Source of the DNA: Spirochaetota bacterium
GTDB taxonomy: Bacteria > Spirochaetota > Spirochaetia > Treponematales > UBA12059
NCBI GenBank assembly: GCA_029560805.1
Contig: JAKQKE010000064.1
Coordinates: 1-33,281 of the forward strand
Length of the DNA: 33,281 nt
Reading direction: 5' to 3'
Below the pieces are notes generated by a model that was given only the letters and a program-made list of their open reading frames with translations, was not told where the DNA came from and searched no databases. The position numbers were made by a program, and so were the translations under genes. Positions 17,105 through 25,791 of this stretch are shown here, in pieces (within the stretch, counting starts at the first letter, position 1; the number at the start of each line of letters is the position of its first letter).

Positions 17105-17572
17105 ATGGATACGAATAGTTTGCGGCCGTTCTTCGACGCGGCCGGCTCGGTCTTCGCGCAGATGTTCGGCCTCGAGCCGGAGGCCTCGGCCCCGCGGGCC
17201 CTCGACGGGGCGGAATCCCATGACTGGGAAGTTTCCGGGCTGCTCGGCATAGCCGGCTCGTCGCAGGGCGTGCTGGCGCTCAGGTTCACCATGGCCCTCG
17301 TCGACAGGCTTCTCGAGGCCAGCGGCGTCGAGTCGCGCGACGAGCAGGACAGGCTGGCCACGGCTTCCGGCCTCGTGGCCGAGATGACGAACATCGTTGC
17401 CGGCAACGCCATCGGCGAGATCGCGGGGCAGAACCTCGAGATATCGCCCCCGGTGGTCATCAAGGGCAAGAATCATCAGATAACCTGGCCAAAGATAGCG
17501 CCGGTCGTCGCCGTCGACTTCAAGACGAGCCTCGGCGCCTTCGAGCTGGCGGTATGCTATAACGGCAAGTAG
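17105..17572 (+). CDS. cheX: CheX-family CheY-P phosphatase
   Basis: This 155-residue CheC/CheX/FliY-superfamily protein dephosphorylates CheY-P in chemotaxis. The active-site pattern E-x-x-N is visible as E93-M-T-N96 followed by GN (100-101) in 'VAEMTNIVAGNAIGE'. Only one such motif is present, as in CheX (CheC has two). The typical 'PPVVIKGK' loop follows at 115-122. Spirochaetes rely on CheX, usually in a cheA-cheW-cheX-cheY cluster, but here it stands alone between the divergent VWA operon and the his operon. It could instead serve another response regulator. GAGG lies 10 nt before the ATG, slightly far. Confidence 0.88.
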   Translation: MDTNSLRPFFDAAGSVFAQMFGLEPEASAPRALDGAESHDWEVSGLLGIAGSSQGVLALRFTMALVDRLLEASGVESRDEQDRLATASGLVAEMTNIVAGNAIGEIAGQNLEISPPVVIKGKNHQITWPKIAPVVAVDFKTSLGAFELAVCYNGK

Positions 17573-17585
17573 CCTCGATAGGCGC

Positions 17586-17615
17586 TTGACGCGGGACCTC
17601 CGTTCCGTGTAGCGT
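17586..17615 (+). promoter_or_regulatory. Promoter of the his operon leader
   Basis: TTGACG (17586-17591) and TAGCGT (17610-17615) are 18 nt apart, immediately after cheX. The -10 box ends 7 nt before the leader-peptide ATG at 17623, so transcription would begin at or next to the start codon. Confidence 0.55.
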
Positions 17616-17622
17616 ATCTCCG

Positions 17623-17706
17623 ATGAGTAACGCTCGATACGTACAGTTCTGCCATCTCCATCATCACGGCCACGCCTATGCGGTCGCGATGATCGTCATA
17701 CCCTAG
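17623..17706 (+). CDS. hisL: his operon leader peptide
   Basis: This is a 27-residue peptide, MSNARYVQFCHLHHHGHAYA followed by VAMIVIP. Five of the seven residues at 11-17 are histidine, the hallmark of a his attenuator control peptide. No ribosome-binding site precedes the ATG, which sits 7 nt after the -10 box, so it is probably translated from a leaderless mRNA. A ribosome stalled at the His codons (17653-17673) would cover the 5' arm of the hairpin at 17660-17693 and so switch the RNA to the antiterminator form. Confidence 0.88.
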   Translation: MSNARYVQFCHLHHHGHAYAVAMIVIP

Positions 17707-17767
17707 GTTCCAGTATCGGAACCGAACGGAACGATACGCCGGCCGCCCGAGGCCGGCGTTTTCGTTT
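17660..17767 (+). promoter_or_regulatory. his transcription attenuator
   Basis: All three alternative structures can be drawn. The pause hairpin pairs ATCATC (17660-17665) and CGGCC (17667-17671) with GGTCG (17682-17686) and GATGAT (17688-17693). The terminator pairs 17736-17744 with 17751-17759 around a 6-nt loop, followed by a T-rich tract to 17767. The antiterminator would pair GGTCG (17682-17686) with the CGGCC in the terminator arm (17740-17744), and ATCGT (17692-17696) with ACGAT (17731-17735). CGGCC occurs both in the His-codon region and in the terminator arm, giving the competition. A separate small hairpin (17706-17711 with 17718-17723) lies between. The logic is that of enterobacterial his attenuation. 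Confidence 0.82.
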
Positions 17768-17840
17768 CTTCGGGGCTTCCGGGCCTCCGCGAGACGGACG
17801 CGGCCGCGCGCGGCCTTCTATCTCGGAAGGAGCGAACGAC

Positions 17841-18710
17841 ATGGAACGGAAGGACGGGAAGCTGCGCCTGGCGCTGCCCAAGGGAAGGATGCAGGAGGGC
17901 GTGCTGCGCCTCCTCGCGGAGGCGGGCCTGGACATGAGGGCCGCCGAGCGGGACTACAGGCCGGCGGCCGGCCTCGACTGGCTCGACGTCAAGGTGCTCA
18001 AGCCCCAGAACATCATCGAGATGCTCGCCGCCGGCAGCCGCGACCTCGGTTTCGCCGGGGCCGACTGGGTGGCCGAGCTCGGTATGGATCTCGTCGAGGT
18101 GCTCGATACCGGTCTCGACCCGGTGCGCCTCGTCGCCGCGGCCCCCGCGGCCATGCTCGAATCGGGCCGACTGCCCGAGCGCCCTCTCGTGGTCGCCAGC
18201 GAGTACGAGGGCTTGGCTCGGCGATGGATAGCGGAGCGGGGCCTGGAGGCGGAGTTCGTGCGCTCCTACGGGGCCACCGAGGTCTTCCCTCCGGAGGACG
18301 CGGACTGCATCGTCGACAATACGGCGACCGGCTCGACGCTGCGCGCCAACGGCTTGGCCGTCGTCGACGAGGTGATGAGCTCGACGACGCGGCTCTACGC
18401 CAACAGGCGCGCGATGGACGATCCGTCCAGGCGCGATCGCGTCGAGTGGCTCGCGATGCTGTGCGCCAGCGTACTCGCCGCCCGAGGCCGCGTCATGCTC
18501 GAGGTGAACGTCGACGCCGAGCGCCTCGAAGGGCTCATAGCGATCCTGCCGGCGATGAAGGAGCCGACCGTCTCGCGCCTCTTAGGCGAGGCCGGCTACG
18601 CCGTCAAGGTGGCCGCGCCAAGGTCGTCGCTACCCGCCCTCCTGCCTGAGATCAGCGCGCGGGGCGGTACTGGCATCGTCATCACCCAGCCGTCGCAGAT
18701 AGTGCCATGA
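17841..18710 (+). CDS. hisG: ATP phosphoribosyltransferase, long form
   Basis: This 289-residue enzyme catalyses the first step of histidine synthesis, joining ATP and PRPP. The N-terminus 'LRLALPKGRM' and the PRPP-binding loop DCIVDNTATGSTL (155-167) are clear. A C-terminal regulatory ACT-like domain (about 215-289, VMLEVNVDAERL onwards and GGTGIVITQ) makes it the long, self-regulated form that does not need HisZ, so feedback inhibition by histidine is expected. AAGGAG precedes ATG 17841. It overlaps hisC by 4 bp (ATGA). Confidence 0.96.
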   Translation: MERKDGKLRLALPKGRMQEGVLRLLAEAGLDMRAAERDYRPAAGLDWLDVKVLKPQNIIEMLAAGSRDLGFAGADWVAELGMDLVEVLDTGLDPVRLVAAAPAAMLESGRLPERPLVVASEYEGLARRWIAERGLEAEFVRSYGATEVFPPEDADCIVDNTATGSTLRANGLAVVDEVMSSTTRLYANRRAMDDPSRRDRVEWLAMLCASVLAARGRVMLEVNVDAERLEGLIAILPAMKEPTVSRLLGEAGYAVKVAAPRSSLPALLPEISARGGTGIVITQPSQIVP

Positions 18711-19819
18711 CGACGACAGAGACCTCCGTCCGGCCAGAACGGCCGTCGTCGCGCTCTCCGTGGATACCGGCAAGCGCCGCCTATGAGCCGAGGCGGCCAG
18801 ACCCGCGTATCCGTTGGTTCCTCGACGCCAACGAGGGTCGGCCGTCGCCCTCGGTCGTCGCCGCGATAGGCGAGGCGCTATCGGGGGCGACGTCCGGAGT
18901 CGGCCGCTACCCGTCGTTCTACGAGCTGGAATCCGCGGTGGCGGCCGCCTGGGGCGTCGAGCCGGCGAGGGTCGTAGCTACGGCCGGCGGAGACGACGCC
19001 ATAAGCCGCGTCGTCGCGGCGCGCCTCGCGCCAGGCGCCAAGATGCTCGTCCACGAGCCGGCCTTCGAGATGTTCGGCGCCTACGCCGCTTCCAGGGGCG
19101 GCGTTACGCTCGCTCTACGTTGGATGGACGGCGAATCCTTCCCGCTGGAAGCCACCGTAGAGGCTATAGAGCGTTGCCCGTCGCTCGGGCTGGTTACCGT
19201 CGTCTCCCCGTCCAACCCCACGGGCGGGATCGTCCCCGAGGCTGACGCGTTGACTATCGCGGCCGCCTGCGCCAGGAGCGGCGCGGCCATGCTGTTCGAC
19301 GCGGCCTACGGGGAATTCGCCGAAACCGACCCGAGCGCTCGCCTGGTAGCCGAAGGCTCGGCCTACGTCGTGCGCAGCTTCTCCAAGGCCTACGGGCTAG
19401 CCGGCCTGCGCATCGGCTACGTCATAGCGCCGGACGCCCCGTCCGCCGCCTCGCTTCGCGCCTGCGGCATGCCGTACCCGAGCTCCGGCCTGGCCTGCGC
19501 GGCCGCCATCGCGGCTTTGGCCGACCGGTCCGCCATGCTATCCGCGGTCGCGACCGCGCGCGCCGAGCGAGACGCCATGGCCGCCCGCTTCCGCGCTCTC
19601 GGCGCCCGGGTCGCCGATTCAGGCGCCAACTTCGTGCTGGCGCGCGTTCGCGATCCGGCCGCCCTCGCCGCAGCGATGGCCCGCGCGGGCGTCGCCGTCA
19701 GGAGCTACGGCGGCCGAGCGGGGCTCGCTGACGCCGTCCGCGTCAGCTGCCCCTGCGACGCGAGCGGCCTGGCCGCCGTACTCGGGGCCCTGGACGGGGC
19801 CGAGGAGTATATCCGATGA
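18707..19819 (+). CDS. hisC: Histidinol-phosphate aminotransferase
   Basis: This 370-residue class I/II PLP-dependent aminotransferase converts imidazole acetol phosphate to histidinol phosphate. The PLP lysine is K227 in RSFSKAYGLAGLRIGY. NPTG (170-173) and the D198/Y201 pair in LFDAAYGE are the other cofactor contacts. Phosphate-cup residues are in 'GGDDAISRVV'. The N-terminus has about 30 extra polar residues before 'RWFLDANEGR', where family members usually begin, so a later start is possible. It is coupled to hisG and hisB by 4-bp overlaps. Confidence 0.94.
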   Translation: MTTTETSVRPERPSSRSPWIPASAAYEPRRPDPRIRWFLDANEGRPSPSVVAAIGEALSGATSGVGRYPSFYELESAVAAAWGVEPARVVATAGGDDAISRVVAARLAPGAKMLVHEPAFEMFGAYAASRGGVTLALRWMDGESFPLEATVEAIERCPSLGLVTVVSPSNPTGGIVPEADALTIAAACARSGAAMLFDAAYGEFAETDPSARLVAEGSAYVVRSFSKAYGLAGLRIGYVIAPDAPSAASLRACGMPYPSSGLACAAAIAALADRSAMLSAVATARAERDAMAARFRALGARVADSGANFVLARVRDPAALAAAMARAGVAVRSYGGRAGLADAVRVSCPCDASGLAAVLGALDGAEEYIR

Positions 19820-20418
19820 ACGATACCCGAAGTCCTCGCGCCGCGGTCGTCGAGCGGCGCACCAAAGAGACGGACGTACGGGTCGAGCTTACGCTCGCGT
19901 CTGGCCCGGTCGACGTGCGTACCGGCGTCGGCTTCCTCGACCACCTCCTATCGAGCCTCGCGTTCCACGGCGGACTCAGCCTGTCCTTACGCTGCGACGG
20001 CGACATCGGGGTCGACGACCACCACAGCGCCGAGGACTGCGCGCTGGCGCTCGGCTCGGCGCTCAAGGACGCGCTGGGCGACAAGGTCGGCATACGCCGA
20101 TTCGGTTCGGCCTTCGCGCCGCTCGACGAATCGCTGGCGCGCGCCGTCGTCGACCTGTCGGGCCGGCCCTGCGCCGTCGTCGACCTCGGCCTGACCCGCG
20201 AGGCCCTCGGCGGCCTGGCCTGCGAGAACGTCGCCCATGTCGTGGCGAGCCTCGCGAACGCCGCCATGGCGACGATACACCTGGACGTGCTACGCGGCTC
20301 GAACGACCACCACCGGGCCGAGGCGGCCTTCAAGGCGCTCGCCTTGGCCCTGCGCGAGGCCATAGCGCTCGACGGCACGTACGGAGCCGCCGTACCGAGC
20401 GCCAAGGGGGCCCTATGA
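19816..20418 (+). CDS. hisB: Imidazoleglycerol-phosphate dehydratase (monofunctional)
   Basis: This 200-residue enzyme has all family blocks: TGVGFLDHLLSSLAFHGG, 'GVDDHHSAEDCALALGSAL' and 'RFGSAFAPLDESLARAVVDLSGRP'. The second metal-binding repeat 'GSNDHHRAEAAFKALALALR' and a final 'SAKGAL' (usually GTKG) follow. It carries no HAD-type histidinol-phosphate phosphatase domain, unlike the bifunctional HisB of E. coli. It overlaps hisC and the hisHF fusion by 4 bp each. Confidence 0.96.
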   Translation: MNDTRSPRAAVVERRTKETDVRVELTLASGPVDVRTGVGFLDHLLSSLAFHGGLSLSLRCDGDIGVDDHHSAEDCALALGSALKDALGDKVGIRRFGSAFAPLDESLARAVVDLSGRPCAVVDLGLTREALGGLACENVAHVVASLANAAMATIHLDVLRGSNDHHRAEAAFKALALALREAIALDGTYGAAVPSAKGAL

Positions 20419-21914
20419 GCGCCGCCTTAGGACAAGACGTCATCATCGTCGACACGGGACGGTCGAACGCGGCCAGCCTGGCCGCCGCTCTCGAGCGGGT
20501 GGGCGCTAGGCCGAGGCTGAGCACCGATCCCGCGGCCGTCCGGGTCGCTTCTTTCGCGGTGCTACCCGGCGTCGGGGCCTTCGGCGCCGTCATGGACCGG
20601 CTGCGCGCCATGGGCGTAGTCGAGGCGCTCAAGGAACGAGTCGAGCTCGGCCTACCGACGCTCGGCGCCTGCCTGGGCATGCAGCTGTTCTTCGGCTCCA
20701 GCGAGGAGTCGCCTGGCGCCGTGGGCATTGGCGCGCTTCCCGGCGCCATCACCGCGTTCGGGCCCGGCGTCCGCTCGCCGCAGTTCGGTTGGAACCGCCT
20801 GTCGCCACCGGAGCCTTCAGTCGGCGGTCTGCTGGCTGGTGCAGAAGCGCTCGGCGGAAGGGCCGCGTGCGCCTATTTCGCCAACTCCTACAAACTCGAC
20901 GAGGCGCCCGTCGGCTGGGCCTCCGCGACCGCGTACTACGGCGCGCCGTTCGTCGCGGCAATGGCGCGCGGCCCCGTGTTGCTCTGCCAGTTCCACCCCG
21001 AATTGTCCGGGGCCTGGGGCCAGGCCCTGCTCGAGCGCTGGCTGGTCGCGGGAGGCGCTCCAGCGAGCGCTCCGACCGAGTCGTCATCGATCACGGCGGA
21101 ACCGAGTATGGCGGAGCCCGGCACGGTACCGAGGCGGGGAACCCTGCCGAGGATCATTCCATGCCTCGACGTGGTCGGGGGCCGCGTCGTCAAGGGCGTA
21201 CGCTTCGAGGAGCTGCGCGACTCGGGCGACCCAGCGGAGCTGGCGGCGCGCTACGAGGCGTCGGGAGCCGACGAGATCGTCCTGCTCGACATAAGCGCGG
21301 GCCTCGAAGGGCGCGAAACCGCGGCGGAGACCGTGCGGGCCGTCAGGCGGAGGATAGGCATACCCCTGTGCGTCGGAGGCGGCGTCAGGAGTCTCGCCGA
21401 CGCTGAGCGCGTGCTCGCCGCCGGCGCCGACAAGGTCGCCCTCAACTCCAGGGGCTATCGCGACCCGGGTCTCTTGACGGCGATCGCGCGCGAGTTCGGC
21501 CGCCAGTGCTGCGTCGCCGCGGTTGATGCGACGAGGCGCGGCCGGTCGTCCGGCGTCGCGCTTGACGGCGCGCCCGTCGTCGTGCTGGACGCGGGCCGGA
21601 CAGAGACGGCTACCCCGGTAACGGACTGGATACGCCGGGCCGTCGACGCCGGGGCCGGCGAGCTTCTTTTGACGAGCCGTGACCGAGACGGCACCCGCTC
21701 AGGCTACGACCTCGAGCTCCTGCATTCGGCCTGCGCCGCCGCGCCCGGAACCCCGGTGATAGCGTCGGGCGGAGCGGCCAGCCCGGAGCAGATACTGGAA
21801 GGCCTACAGGCCGGAGCCGACGCGGCGCTGCTCGCCGGCGCCCTGCACGACGGCTCGTTGACAATTGCCGCGATCAAGGACTACATGCGCCGCGAGGGCG
21901 CGGAGGTACGCTGA
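20415..21914 (+). CDS. hisHF: HisH-HisF fusion: imidazole glycerol phosphate synthase
   Basis: This single 499-residue protein carries both halves of IGP synthase. Residues 1-212 are the HisH glutaminase: oxyanion loop PGVGAFG (51-57), nucleophile C86 in GACLGMQ, and H194/E196 in CQFHPELSG. A Pro/Ser/Glu-rich linker (about 213-244) joins the HisF cyclase barrel (245-499), with D252 in PCLDVVGG, K260, D371 in AAVDATR, 'LLTSRDRDGTRSG' and 'ASGGAAS'. Fusion is standard in fungi and plants (HIS7) but uncommon in bacteria, where two proteins are normal. It would channel ammonia within one chain. An internal ATG at 21108 in the linker could give a separate HisF, but no strong ribosome-binding site supports it. 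Confidence 0.95.
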   Translation: MSAALGQDVIIVDTGRSNAASLAAALERVGARPRLSTDPAAVRVASFAVLPGVGAFGAVMDRLRAMGVVEALKERVELGLPTLGACLGMQLFFGSSEESPGAVGIGALPGAITAFGPGVRSPQFGWNRLSPPEPSVGGLLAGAEALGGRAACAYFANSYKLDEAPVGWASATAYYGAPFVAAMARGPVLLCQFHPELSGAWGQALLERWLVAGGAPASAPTESSSITAEPSMAEPGTVPRRGTLPRIIPCLDVVGGRVVKGVRFEELRDSGDPAELAARYEASGADEIVLLDISAGLEGRETAAETVRAVRRRIGIPLCVGGGVRSLADAERVLAAGADKVALNSRGYRDPGLLTAIAREFGRQCCVAAVDATRRGRSSGVALDGAPVVVLDAGRTETATPVTDWIRRAVDAGAGELLLTSRDRDGTRSGYDLELLHSACAAAPGTPVIASGGAASPEQILEGLQAGADAALLAGALHDGSLTIAAIKDYMRREGAEVR

Positions 21915-23269
21915 TGCTGATTCCATCGATCGATATCCTGGGCGGCAGGGCCGTCCAGCTCGTCGGGGGCGAGCGTTTCGAGCTGGACTGCGGGGATCCG
22001 CTCGAGCTCGCGGAGCGCTTCTCCGTACTCGGTGAGCTGGCCGTCGTCGACCTGGACGCCGCCATGGGCTCCGGCTCCAACCTTGAGCTCGTGGCGGAGC
22101 TGGCTTCTCGCTGGCCGTGCAGAGTCGGCGGGGGCGTGCGCGATGAGTCGACGATGCGCCGGCTCCTCGACTCAGGCGCCCGCTCCGTCATGGTTGGTAC
22201 CAGGGCGACGCCGGAATTCTTGTCCGCTTTCCCCAGGGAACGTCTCATAGCCGCCCTCGACTTCAAGCGCGGCGTCGTCATGACCGAGGGCTGGAAGACC
22301 AGCACCGGAGCGAGCGTAGCCGATAAAGCCGCCGTGCTGGCTCCGTACGTCGGCGGTATCATCGTCACCGCTATCGAGATAGAGGGCTCGCTGTCGGGTA
22401 TCGACCTGAACGCGTCCCGCGCGCTTGTCGAGTCGATACGCGCGGCCGGCTTCGACGGGGTGCTGACGCTCGCCGGTGGAGTGAGCTCGGCCGCCGAGGT
22501 GGCTACCCTCGACGCGATGGGCGTCGACGCGCAGGTCGGCATGGCCCTATACAAGGGCGTACTCGATCCCGCGGACGCGTTCGCCGCGTGCCTGTCTTCC
22601 GACCGGCCCGACGGGCTGTGGCCCACGGTCGTCTGCGACGAGTCAGGCGTCGCGCTCGGGCTCGCGTACTCGGACGCGGAGAGCCTTAAGGCTGCCATAA
22701 CGGAGCGCTCCGGCGTCTATCGCTCGCGTAGGCGTGGGCTGTGGCGCAAGGGCGAGTCGAGCGGCGACCGCCAGACTCTCCTACGAGTCGACGCCGACTG
22801 CGACCGAGACGCGCTACGTTTTACCGTGCGCCAGTCTGGCGCCGGGTTCTGCCACCGGGGAACGCGGACCTGCTTCGGGGCCGTCGGGGCGGCCGGGTTC
22901 GGCGGCGACGATCGCGGCTTCGCTCTGGTATCGAGGACGACGGAGCGGCGCCTCGCCGAAGTCGCCGCGGGCGAAGCGCCGGCGGGCTCATATACGGCCA
23001 GACTCTTCACGGAACCGGGCTTGCTCGACGCCAAGATAGCCGAGGAGGCCGCCGAGCTATGCGAGGCTAGGGGACCGGGGCGCTCCGCCGAGGAGGCGGC
23101 CGACCTCGTCTATTTCGTATCGGTGAAGCTGGCCAGCGATGGGACGAGCCTCGCGGACGTCGAGCGCGTGCTCGACCGCCGCGCTCTGCGCGTGACCAGG
23201 CGGCCCGGTAACGCCAAGTCGCCGTATAGGGAGCAGGGGAACGAAGCGTGGAAGACCGGTATACACTGA
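21914..23269 (+). CDS. hisAIE: HisA-HisI-HisE trifunctional fusion
   Basis: This 451-residue protein joins three enzymes. Residues 1-228 are the HisA isomerase barrel (D7 in PSIDILGGRAVQL, D116 in ALDFKRG, T152, AGGVSS). Residues 232-322 are HisI, PRA-CH cyclohydrolase (GLWRKGESSGD; metal ligands C296 in DADCDRD, C313 in FCHRG, C320 in RTCFG). Residues about 338-430 are HisE, PRA-PH pyrophosphatase (KIAEEAAELCEA, SAEEAADLVYFV). HisIE fusions are common; HisA fused in front is unusual. In HisA the usual DGTLSG reads EGSLSG (157-162), an Asp to Glu change. The ATG overlaps the hisHF stop by one base (TGATG). Confidence 0.93.
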   Translation: MLIPSIDILGGRAVQLVGGERFELDCGDPLELAERFSVLGELAVVDLDAAMGSGSNLELVAELASRWPCRVGGGVRDESTMRRLLDSGARSVMVGTRATPEFLSAFPRERLIAALDFKRGVVMTEGWKTSTGASVADKAAVLAPYVGGIIVTAIEIEGSLSGIDLNASRALVESIRAAGFDGVLTLAGGVSSAAEVATLDAMGVDAQVGMALYKGVLDPADAFAACLSSDRPDGLWPTVVCDESGVALGLAYSDAESLKAAITERSGVYRSRRRGLWRKGESSGDRQTLLRVDADCDRDALRFTVRQSGAGFCHRGTRTCFGAVGAAGFGGDDRGFALVSRTTERRLAEVAAGEAPAGSYTARLFTEPGLLDAKIAEEAAELCEARGPGRSAEEAADLVYFVSVKLASDGTSLADVERVLDRRALRVTRRPGNAKSPYREQGNEAWKTGIH

Positions 23270-24522
23270 GGCGCGTCGGCCTCGAGGAGATAGGCCGTAG
23301 GGGCCGACCGGCCGACGACCCGGCCTGCGAGGCGACGGCTAGGCGCATCATGGACGAGGTACGGGACGGCGGCGAGGCAGCGCTCGCCCGCCTGGCAGCC
23401 GAGCTCGACGGCAACGCCGGCCGGCTGTGGTACGGCCCGGACGACTTCGCCTCGGCGCTGCAATCGATCCCGGCCGCCGAGCGCGGGGTCCTGGAACGGG
23501 CGGCCGGCAGGGTAGGGGCCTTCGCCGCCGCCCAACTCGCCTCGCTCGGAACCGTGGACCTCGCGGTACCCGGCGGCCGGGCCGGCCACGAGGTCCTGCC
23601 GGTGGAGCGGGCCGGCTGCTACGTGCCCGGAGGCCGCTATCCCTTACCGTCCACCGTGCTGATGACCGCCCTCGTCGCGAGGACCGCCGGCGTCGCGGAC
23701 GTCGCGGTCGCCTGCCCGAGGCCGTCTCCCTTGATACTGGCCGCCTGCGCCGTCGCGGGCGCGGATTCCTTGCTCGCGGCGGGCGGCGCGCAGGCCATAG
23801 CCGCCTTCGCGTACGGAGCAGGGCCATTGCCGCCCCGCGACGTCGTCGTCGGCCCGGGCAACCGATACGTCGCCGCCGCCAAGCGCCTAGCCCAGGCACT
23901 AGTCCGTACCGACGCTCCGGCCGGCCCGAGCGAGCTGCTCGTCATCGCCGACGAATCGGCCGACCCGACGACGGTCGCCTGGGATCTGCTCGCCCAGGCG
24001 GAGCACGATCCGGACGCCGTGCCGGCCCTGGCCGCCTCGTCCGAAACGGTCGCGGGCGCGGTGGAGCTGGCCCTGGCGGCCTGCCTCGGCGAGCTTGGAG
24101 CCCTCAGGCCCGAGTCGGCCTCGATAGCCCGGGCGGCCCTCGCCAACGGGTGGGCCTTCGTATCGGCCGACCGTACCGAGCTAGCGGCGGTCGCCGACCG
24201 CTTCGCCCCCGAGCATCTGGAGCTGGCCGTCGTCGAAGCTCGGCGCCTGGCCGGCTCGTGCCGTCATGCCGGGGCGATCTTCATGGGCGGTTCGAGCGCC
24301 GAAGCTTTCGGCGACTACGGCGCGGGCCCGAACCACACCCTGCCCACCTCCGGGCGGGCTCGATCGTCGGGCGGCCTGTCGGTGTTCGACTTCGTGCGCA
24401 TACGCAGTTGGCTGGCAGTCGACGACGCCGACGAGCTTCTCATCGCCGACACGGCGCTACTGGCCGGGGCCGAGGGCCTGTTCGCTCATGCGAGATCGGC
24501 CCTACGGCGCTCCGCTCCGTGA
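23248..24522 (+). CDS. hisD: Histidinol dehydrogenase
   Basis: This 424-residue NAD- and zinc-dependent enzyme performs the last two oxidations from histidinol to histidine. Zinc ligands are Q250 and H253 (LAQAEHD) and D356 (FGDYGAGPNHT), with a His in the C-terminal AEGLFAHAR. Catalytic E322-H323 are in RFAPEHLEL. CYVPGGRYPLPSTVLM and 'AGGAQAIAAFAYG' are further family marks. The start is GTG 23248, with AGGGAG upstream, overlapping the hisAIE end by 22 bp. It ends the operon; no histidinol-phosphate phosphatase gene follows. Confidence 0.95.
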   Translation: MEDRYTLRRVGLEEIGRRGRPADDPACEATARRIMDEVRDGGEAALARLAAELDGNAGRLWYGPDDFASALQSIPAAERGVLERAAGRVGAFAAAQLASLGTVDLAVPGGRAGHEVLPVERAGCYVPGGRYPLPSTVLMTALVARTAGVADVAVACPRPSPLILAACAVAGADSLLAAGGAQAIAAFAYGAGPLPPRDVVVGPGNRYVAAAKRLAQALVRTDAPAGPSELLVIADESADPTTVAWDLLAQAEHDPDAVPALAASSETVAGAVELALAACLGELGALRPESASIARAALANGWAFVSADRTELAAVADRFAPEHLELAVVEARRLAGSCRHAGAIFMGGSSAEAFGDYGAGPNHTLPTSGRARSSGGLSVFDFVRIRSWLAVDDADELLIADTALLAGAEGLFAHARSALRRSAP

Positions 24523-25393: not shown

Positions 25394-25435
25394 AAAACAA
25401 GTCAGGCTCCGCTTTCGCGGAGCCTGACTTGTTTT
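25394..25435 (-). terminator. tmRNA terminator
   Basis: A perfect 19-bp stem (25394-25412 with 25417-25435) closes a 4-nt loop, GAAA in the tmRNA transcript. It begins immediately after the tmRNA discriminator base. On the minus strand it ends in TTGTTTT, a good U tract. Confidence 0.9.
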
Positions 25436-25791
25436 TGGAGGTGGGGGGAGTCGAACCCCCGTCCTATCACGCGGAAGGAAGGCTTCTACAGGTTTAGGCG
25501 GCCTTTCAAGTTGTCGGGAGGCGGGCGGCGGGCCGCCGCGCTATCGCCTCCGTATCCCGCTTGGTGTCCCCCCCGTCCCGCGGGCGTGGCGGGGGGTAAG
25601 CCCTGGTCGGGTTACAGACCGGTCGCGGCGCTCAGAGCGGGGCGCCGCGGAGTCCGTCGCTATCGGCGCTTACGCGGCGAGAGCGAAATTGCCGTTGTCG
25701 TTGGCAATTAAAGGTTTGCCGAGAGTAGGAGATCGGCGCTCCACCTGCGACCCGCGAACCGGACCGTGACAGTCGAAACCGGGGCACCCCC
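25436..25791 (-). ncRNA. ssrA: Transfer-messenger RNA (tmRNA)
   Basis: This 356-nt gene rescues stalled ribosomes with SmpB. The 5' acceptor strand GGGGGTG (25791 down to 25785) pairs with CACCTCC at the 3' end, with one G-U pair. The T arm is GGGGGTTCGACTCCCCC and the 5' part contains GGTTTCGACTG, both tmRNA signatures. The reading frame for the tag encodes ANDNGNFALAA and then TAA at 25670-25672, ending in the typical ALAA degron. Resumption is probably at GCC 25703-25705. The CCA end is not encoded: AAAA of the terminator stem follows the discriminator. It is a one-piece form. Confidence 0.96.

Follow-up and report, generated by a model that had tools for sequence, protein, structure and literature searches.

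The histidine operon and its leader region

The analyzed window, a stretch of 33,281 nucleotides from a 3.3-Mb spirochaete assembly, encompasses on its forward strand a histidine biosynthesis operon with gene order hisG-C-B-HF-AIE-D. The first controlled gene, hisG (17841..18710; Pfam HisG and HisG_C), is followed by hisC (18707-19819), hisB (19816-20418), a hisHF fusion of 499 aa (20415-21914), a hisA-hisI-hisE fusion of 451 aa with three Pfam domains (21914-23269) and hisD (23248-24522). The genes are tightly packed, and most share a few bases with the gene that follows. A hisH-hisF fusion (506 aa) is also found in the same genus (L268), and hisH and hisF are separate in Gracilinema caldarium (L270). 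ORFs similar in length and sequence to the hisA-hisI-hisE fusion are present at both loci, which suggests from sequence that this fusion may be general in the order. A gene for a CheX-type chemotaxis phosphatase (17105-17572) lies upstream of the operon, with 13 nt separating its end from the -35 box described below. A tmRNA gene is located on the reverse strand at 25433-25791 (Rfam RF00023, 138 bits).

Between the chemotaxis gene and hisG lies a short ORF, hisL (17623..17706, forward strand), encoding a 27-residue control peptide, MSNARYVQFCHLHHHGHAYAVAMIVIP. As the initial annotation had noted, the peptide has five histidines in seven residues, encoded by the run CAT CTC CAT CAT CAC GGC CAC (17653..17673), for which relatives carry HLHHHGH-like equivalents. 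Downstream of the His codons, folding predicts a set of mutually exclusive helices on the same strand. The His-codon arm (strand 1, 17660..17671) pairs with 17682-17693 in a pause hairpin, and strand 2 (17680..17696) can pair with either strand 1 or strand 3, the latter giving an antiterminator. Strands 3 and 4 form an intrinsic terminator hairpin with a T-rich tail (17728..17768), identified by both folding and terminator search. The Shine-Dalgarno sequence of hisG, GGAAGGAG (17825..17832), has no counterpart before the leader peptide.

A search with the Rfam His_leader model (RF00514) returned no match in the window at the gathering score, nor in 17550-17850 at E values up to 10, nor in 19 related loci from other families and phyla, while the E. 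coli leader, used as a positive control, was matched at 131.6 bits. The his leader of the window falls outside RF00514. Assignment to the T-box class or to another described RNA family was likewise rejected, with no Rfam match upstream of the operon.

Alternative RNA helices and their conservation

The competition originally proposed for the leader, in which two copies of CGGCC vie for the same GGTCG, is borne out by the coordinates: CGGCC occurs in the His-codon arm (17667-17671) and in the 5' arm of the terminator (17740-17744), and each copy can pair with GGTCG at 17682-17686. The antiterminator extends beyond this five-base match, joining GCGGUCG (17680-17686) with CGGCCGC (17740-17746) and AUCGU (17692-17696) with ACGAU (17731-17735), and it closes over a small hairpin, GGUUCC/GGAACC (17706..17723), in which two pairs are changed on both sides among relatives. 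Compared with shuffled sequences, the leader fold has a z of -3.7 and the terminator region a z of -4 to -5, the whole leader beating nearly all shuffles mainly because of the terminator; the pause hairpin alone shows no extra stability over shuffles (z of about 0).

The unconstrained fold consists of the His-codon hairpin (17660-17671 with 17682-17693) and the strong terminator at 17728-17768. We also folded the RNA with the bases covered by a ribosome excluded and with its end set at 17750, before the 3' arm of the terminator exists. Under this constraint, the 2:3 antiterminator is the best fold when the footprint covers position one, three or four of the His run. No antiterminator forms when the ribosome sits at the last His codon or at the stop codon, or when it is absent; the lack of the 2:3 pairing with the last His codon in the A site counts against the proposed mechanism. 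The complete terminator is more stable than the antiterminator, indicating that switching must be kinetic and occur during RNA synthesis, as in known attenuators.

Loss of the His run or of the pairing in close relatives, which would speak against the proposal, was looked for across the order of the window, and both features proved to be retained. Of 59 related genomes searched, 43 presented hisG and 30 loci were read. A His-rich ORF was scored before hisG in 28 of these 30 loci, one of them (L028) doubtful because it lacks a start codon, and TTGAC lies 34-41 nt before the peptide start in 27/30. The peptides vary but retain HLHHHGH, HHHHGH or HHHHHG, and a terminator accompanies each of the 27 leaders examined in the order. 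The leader is also found, as MKRITMNHHHHHGYSSRGA, in a cultivated relative, Gracilinema caldarium (Spirochaeta caldaria H1T). Across the order, CAYCAYCAYGGNCAY proved too frequent per genome to be informative, and a search of 39 relatives for leaderless Trp leaders carrying three Trp codons yielded five scattered matches. No His leader was detected near hisG in 28 loci from the rest of the phylum, including Treponemataceae, indicating that the leader is not general in spirochaetes.

Strand 2 and the 5' arm of the terminator change together among these leaders, from GCGGUCG/CGGCCGC in the window to GGAGCCG/CGGCUCC in L020 and L021, GAUAGCCG/CGGCUAUC in L022 and GGAAUCC/GGAUUCU in L026. When each strand 2 was paired with the terminator arm of its own leader or with that of another leader, own partners gave a mean of -18.9 kcal/mol versus -16.6 kcal/mol for swapped partners (p = 1e-4 with 27 leaders; p = 4e-4 with 15 representatives). 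In one relative (L011), strand 2 is conserved in nucleotide sequence and read in a different frame, which argues that it functions as RNA. Tested leader by leader against shuffles, the 2:3 pairing is significant for only a minority, a weakness attributable to the G+C-rich composition of both strands and to the terminator finder sometimes choosing a second, downstream terminator. Within the genus most pairs never vary, so the covariation rests on more distant relatives.

Several loci (L007, L010-L013, L018, L020, L021 and L023) contain a second intrinsic terminator between the first and hisG. The 3' arm of the first can pair with the 5' arm of the second, as in L011 (-21.5 kcal/mol), and such pairing could pass antitermination on through a longer series of strands.

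Promoter position and initiation of the control peptide

The hisL promoter, as read from the letters, consists of a -35 element TTGACG (17586..17591, forward strand) and a -10 element TAGCGT (17610..17615) separated by an 18-nt spacer. The start codon at 17623 follows the end of the -10 element by 7 nt, and this gap contains no purine-rich Shine-Dalgarno sequence, in agreement with what the initial annotation had read there. The distance from the -35 element to the hisL ATG is 37 nt, which places the expected start of transcription on the AUG or within 1-2 bases of it (about 17622-17623 as predicted from the spacing). The position of the -10 element about 7 nt before the start codon and the absence of a Shine-Dalgarno sequence are both features of leaderless mRNAs, and the control peptide is thus probably read from a leaderless RNA, as had been suggested. 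The weak -10 element and the 18-nt spacer count against this reading; a strict-consensus search found no promoter at the his leader because of the TAGCGT -10 element, and relatives present better promoters, such as TTGACA/TATATG in L007. The hisL coding sequence opens with nine bases, ATGAGTAAC (17623-17631), that are invariant in the eight aligned leaders (the window, L002-L007 and L011), whereas later codons vary; this invariance may be relevant to leaderless initiation.

We searched the genome of the window for a promoter-ATG pattern (TTGAC, 18-20 nt, TANNNT, 5-8 nt, ATG), using the reversed pattern as control. The search returned 41 matches versus 2 for the reversed pattern. This roughly twentyfold excess supports the leaderless reading of hisL and suggests that the spirochaete may have many leaderless mRNAs. 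In the 100 sites listed, the gap between -10 element and ATG peaks at 6-8 nt, and most of the 30 sites fetched (L111-L140) open long ORFs, some of which resemble housekeeping proteins by eye. Leaderless mRNAs have been mapped in the spirochaete Leptospira interrogans (PMC5243855), and Zheng et al. inferred them in 6/18 spirochaete genomes (PMC3160421).

The same arrangement is encountered beyond the spirochaetes. A scan of named genomes for HisG relatives provided 80 loci, to which searches of three further phyla added more; in this sample, chosen by similarity to the HisG of the window and therefore no census of bacteria, a His leader is present in 89 of 185 non-redundant loci, and in 69 of the 89 TTGAC lies 35-40 nt before a start codon. 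With phylum labels taken from record titles, leaders with this spacing make up 27/28 in the order of the window, 17/23 in Planctomycetota, 11/18 in Acidobacteriota, 5/7 in Myxococcota, 3/3 in Pseudomonadota, 2/2 in Gemmatimonadota, 2/3 in 'Deltaproteobacteria', 1/2 in Sumerlaeota and 1/3 in others. When a single pre-set start was used per leader, the spacing was found in 63/86, compared to a mean of 0.6 and a maximum of 3 in shuffles, and several of the exceptions carry another TTG-containing hexamer at roughly the same site. A Shine-Dalgarno core of at least 4 bases precedes 20/86 leader peptides versus 83/86 hisG starts, the latter value being inflated because the best of several candidate hisG starts was taken. 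In eight Acidobacteriota loci (L209 and L212-L218) the His leaders lie about 500-570 nt upstream of hisG, perhaps with a small operon gene in between.

In a FastTree phylogeny of HisG, whose deep branches are weakly supported, the leader is scattered through a lineage in which phyla are intermixed, suggesting that the leader may have travelled with the operon. Taken together, these data make it rather more plausible than its opposite that his attenuators with leaderless peptides are widespread before hisG in eight groups (Spirochaetota, Planctomycetota, Myxococcota, Acidobacteriota, Gemmatimonadota, Sumerlaeota, some Pseudomonadota and 'Deltaproteobacteria'), often within one phylum-mixing HisG lineage, and that the enterobacterial leader with its 5' UTR is one of two designs.

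Alternative readings and proposed mechanism

The conserved distance between TTGAC and the peptide start bears directly on whether this could instead be an ordinary his attenuator, transcribed from further upstream by read-through from cheX or from an unseen promoter and translated from a weak or non-canonical ribosome site. The weak -10 element favors such a start, and the short interval between the end of cheX at 17572 and the -35 box would allow read-through RNA. However, a promoter for a leadered RNA has no reason to hold its distance to the peptide start, and this distance is held in 27 of the 30 loci of the order, including two (L005 and L024) with unrelated upstream sequence, as well as in other phyla. 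Together with the gap before the hisL ATG, devoid of a Shine-Dalgarno sequence, this renders an upstream start unlikely. A closer competitor is a very short leader of about 2-5 nt in place of an exact start at the A of the AUG, for which a spacing of 39-40 nt in 12/69 leaders and the GTG-starting leaders of L012 and L013, at 40 nt, can be adduced. The most frequent spacing, 37-38 nt, agrees with transcription beginning no more than 1-2 nt from the AUG, leaving the short leader as a possible, though clearly less favored, option; since initiation would depend on the 5' end in the same way, it departs from the leaderless reading only in degree.

It is also conceivable that the peptide and terminator are real and that control does not proceed through stalling on His codons, with the released RNA or peptide acting in trans, as do the RNA and peptide of the leaderless trpL attenuator of Sinorhizobium meliloti (PMC7298713). 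A trans role alone would need neither the enrichment in His codons beside a terminator, which is kept across phyla, nor the covariation of strands 2 and 3, and we regard it as very improbable as the sole explanation; trans and cis roles are compatible.

With these alternatives weighed, the his operon is, with high probability, controlled by a ribosome-mediated transcription attenuator, the control peptide of which begins at the 5' end of the RNA or no more than about 3 nt from it. Judging from the spacing and the missing Shine-Dalgarno sequence, RNA polymerase would start at about 17622-17623 and a ribosome would load straight onto the 5' AUG. By analogy with the E. coli his leader, and in line with the predicted fold, the 1:2 pause hairpin, with the His codons in strand 1, would detain the polymerase until the ribosome arrives. 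When charged tRNA-His is scarce, the ribosome would halt on the His codons and cover strand 1, allowing strand 2 to pair with strand 3, a pairing seen in silico in the constrained folds and the covariation, and transcription would be expected to proceed into hisG. When histidine is plentiful, a ribosome at the stop codon would cover strand 2 and the 3:4 terminator would form. In the absence of translation, hairpins 1:2 and 3:4 would both form, making the default state off.

In silico, the leader thus displays the features of its class, namely a short ORF rich in cognate codons, an intrinsic terminator before the first gene and an antiterminator dependent on ribosome position, and at the sequence level it appears to work like a classical attenuator, with a predicted effect on expression. 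If so, his attenuation would reach phyla for which the papers found contain no report of it, and the ribosome entry step of an attenuator could be linked to the opening bases of its RNA. Synchronization of transcription and translation would be altered, turning the role of the pause hairpin into a testable matter, and the terminated RNA would be a mini leaderless mRNA.

The E. coli his leader forms pause, antiterminator and terminator helices. The leader described here resembles E. coli hisL (RF00514) in these helices and in presenting a His-rich peptide and a terminator before hisG. It differs in the placement of the promoter, since in E. coli hisL, used as control, 68 nt separate the -35 element from the ATG and the RNA has a real 5' leader; the departure from the enterobacterial arrangement signaled by the initial annotation is therefore upheld. 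In our search of the open-access literature, we found no report of a leaderless his attenuator, or of his attenuation in spirochaetes or planctomycetes. According to a 2010 survey, leader peptides were known solely from Proteobacteria and Actinobacteria, apart from the Firmicutes cases of the survey itself (PMC2965389), and PMC4833913 cites the comparative attenuation survey published by Lopatovskaya and colleagues in 2010 and a conference paper of 2015 dealing with actinobacterial His leader peptides. According to the available portion of PMC9413887, his attenuators have been described in Proteobacteria and some Firmicutes, with candidates in the Bacillus cereus group, Peptostreptococcaceae and Erysipelotrichales. 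As presented there, these candidates are similar to the leader of the window in combining a His leader peptide with a terminator and an antiterminator outside the Proteobacteria; they belong to different lineages, and leaderlessness is not described in that portion.

Leaderless control peptides are known from Actinobacteria, where Streptomyces lividans has leaderless LeuL, TrpL and IlvL upstream of Leu, Trp, branched-chain and other genes (PMC8079986) and mycobacteria have leaderless poly-Cys ORFs (Canestrari 2020, as cited in PMC9031893). In these cases, as proposed for the his leader, an amino-acid-rich control peptide is carried by a leaderless RNA that precedes biosynthetic genes, but they serve other amino acids in another phylum, and for the histidine operons of Actinobacteria Seliverstov (2005) reported that no conserved RNA structure lies upstream (PMC1262725). 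In S. meliloti trpL, the attenuated RNA begins directly with the ATG of the leader peptide (PMC7298713), the position that the promoter spacing predicts here; the likeness noted is one of arrangement, trpL being a tryptophan leader of an alphaproteobacterium. What appears new, within the literature searched, is a his attenuator with a probably leaderless peptide, leaderless leader peptides being already known for Trp, Leu, Ilv and Cys.
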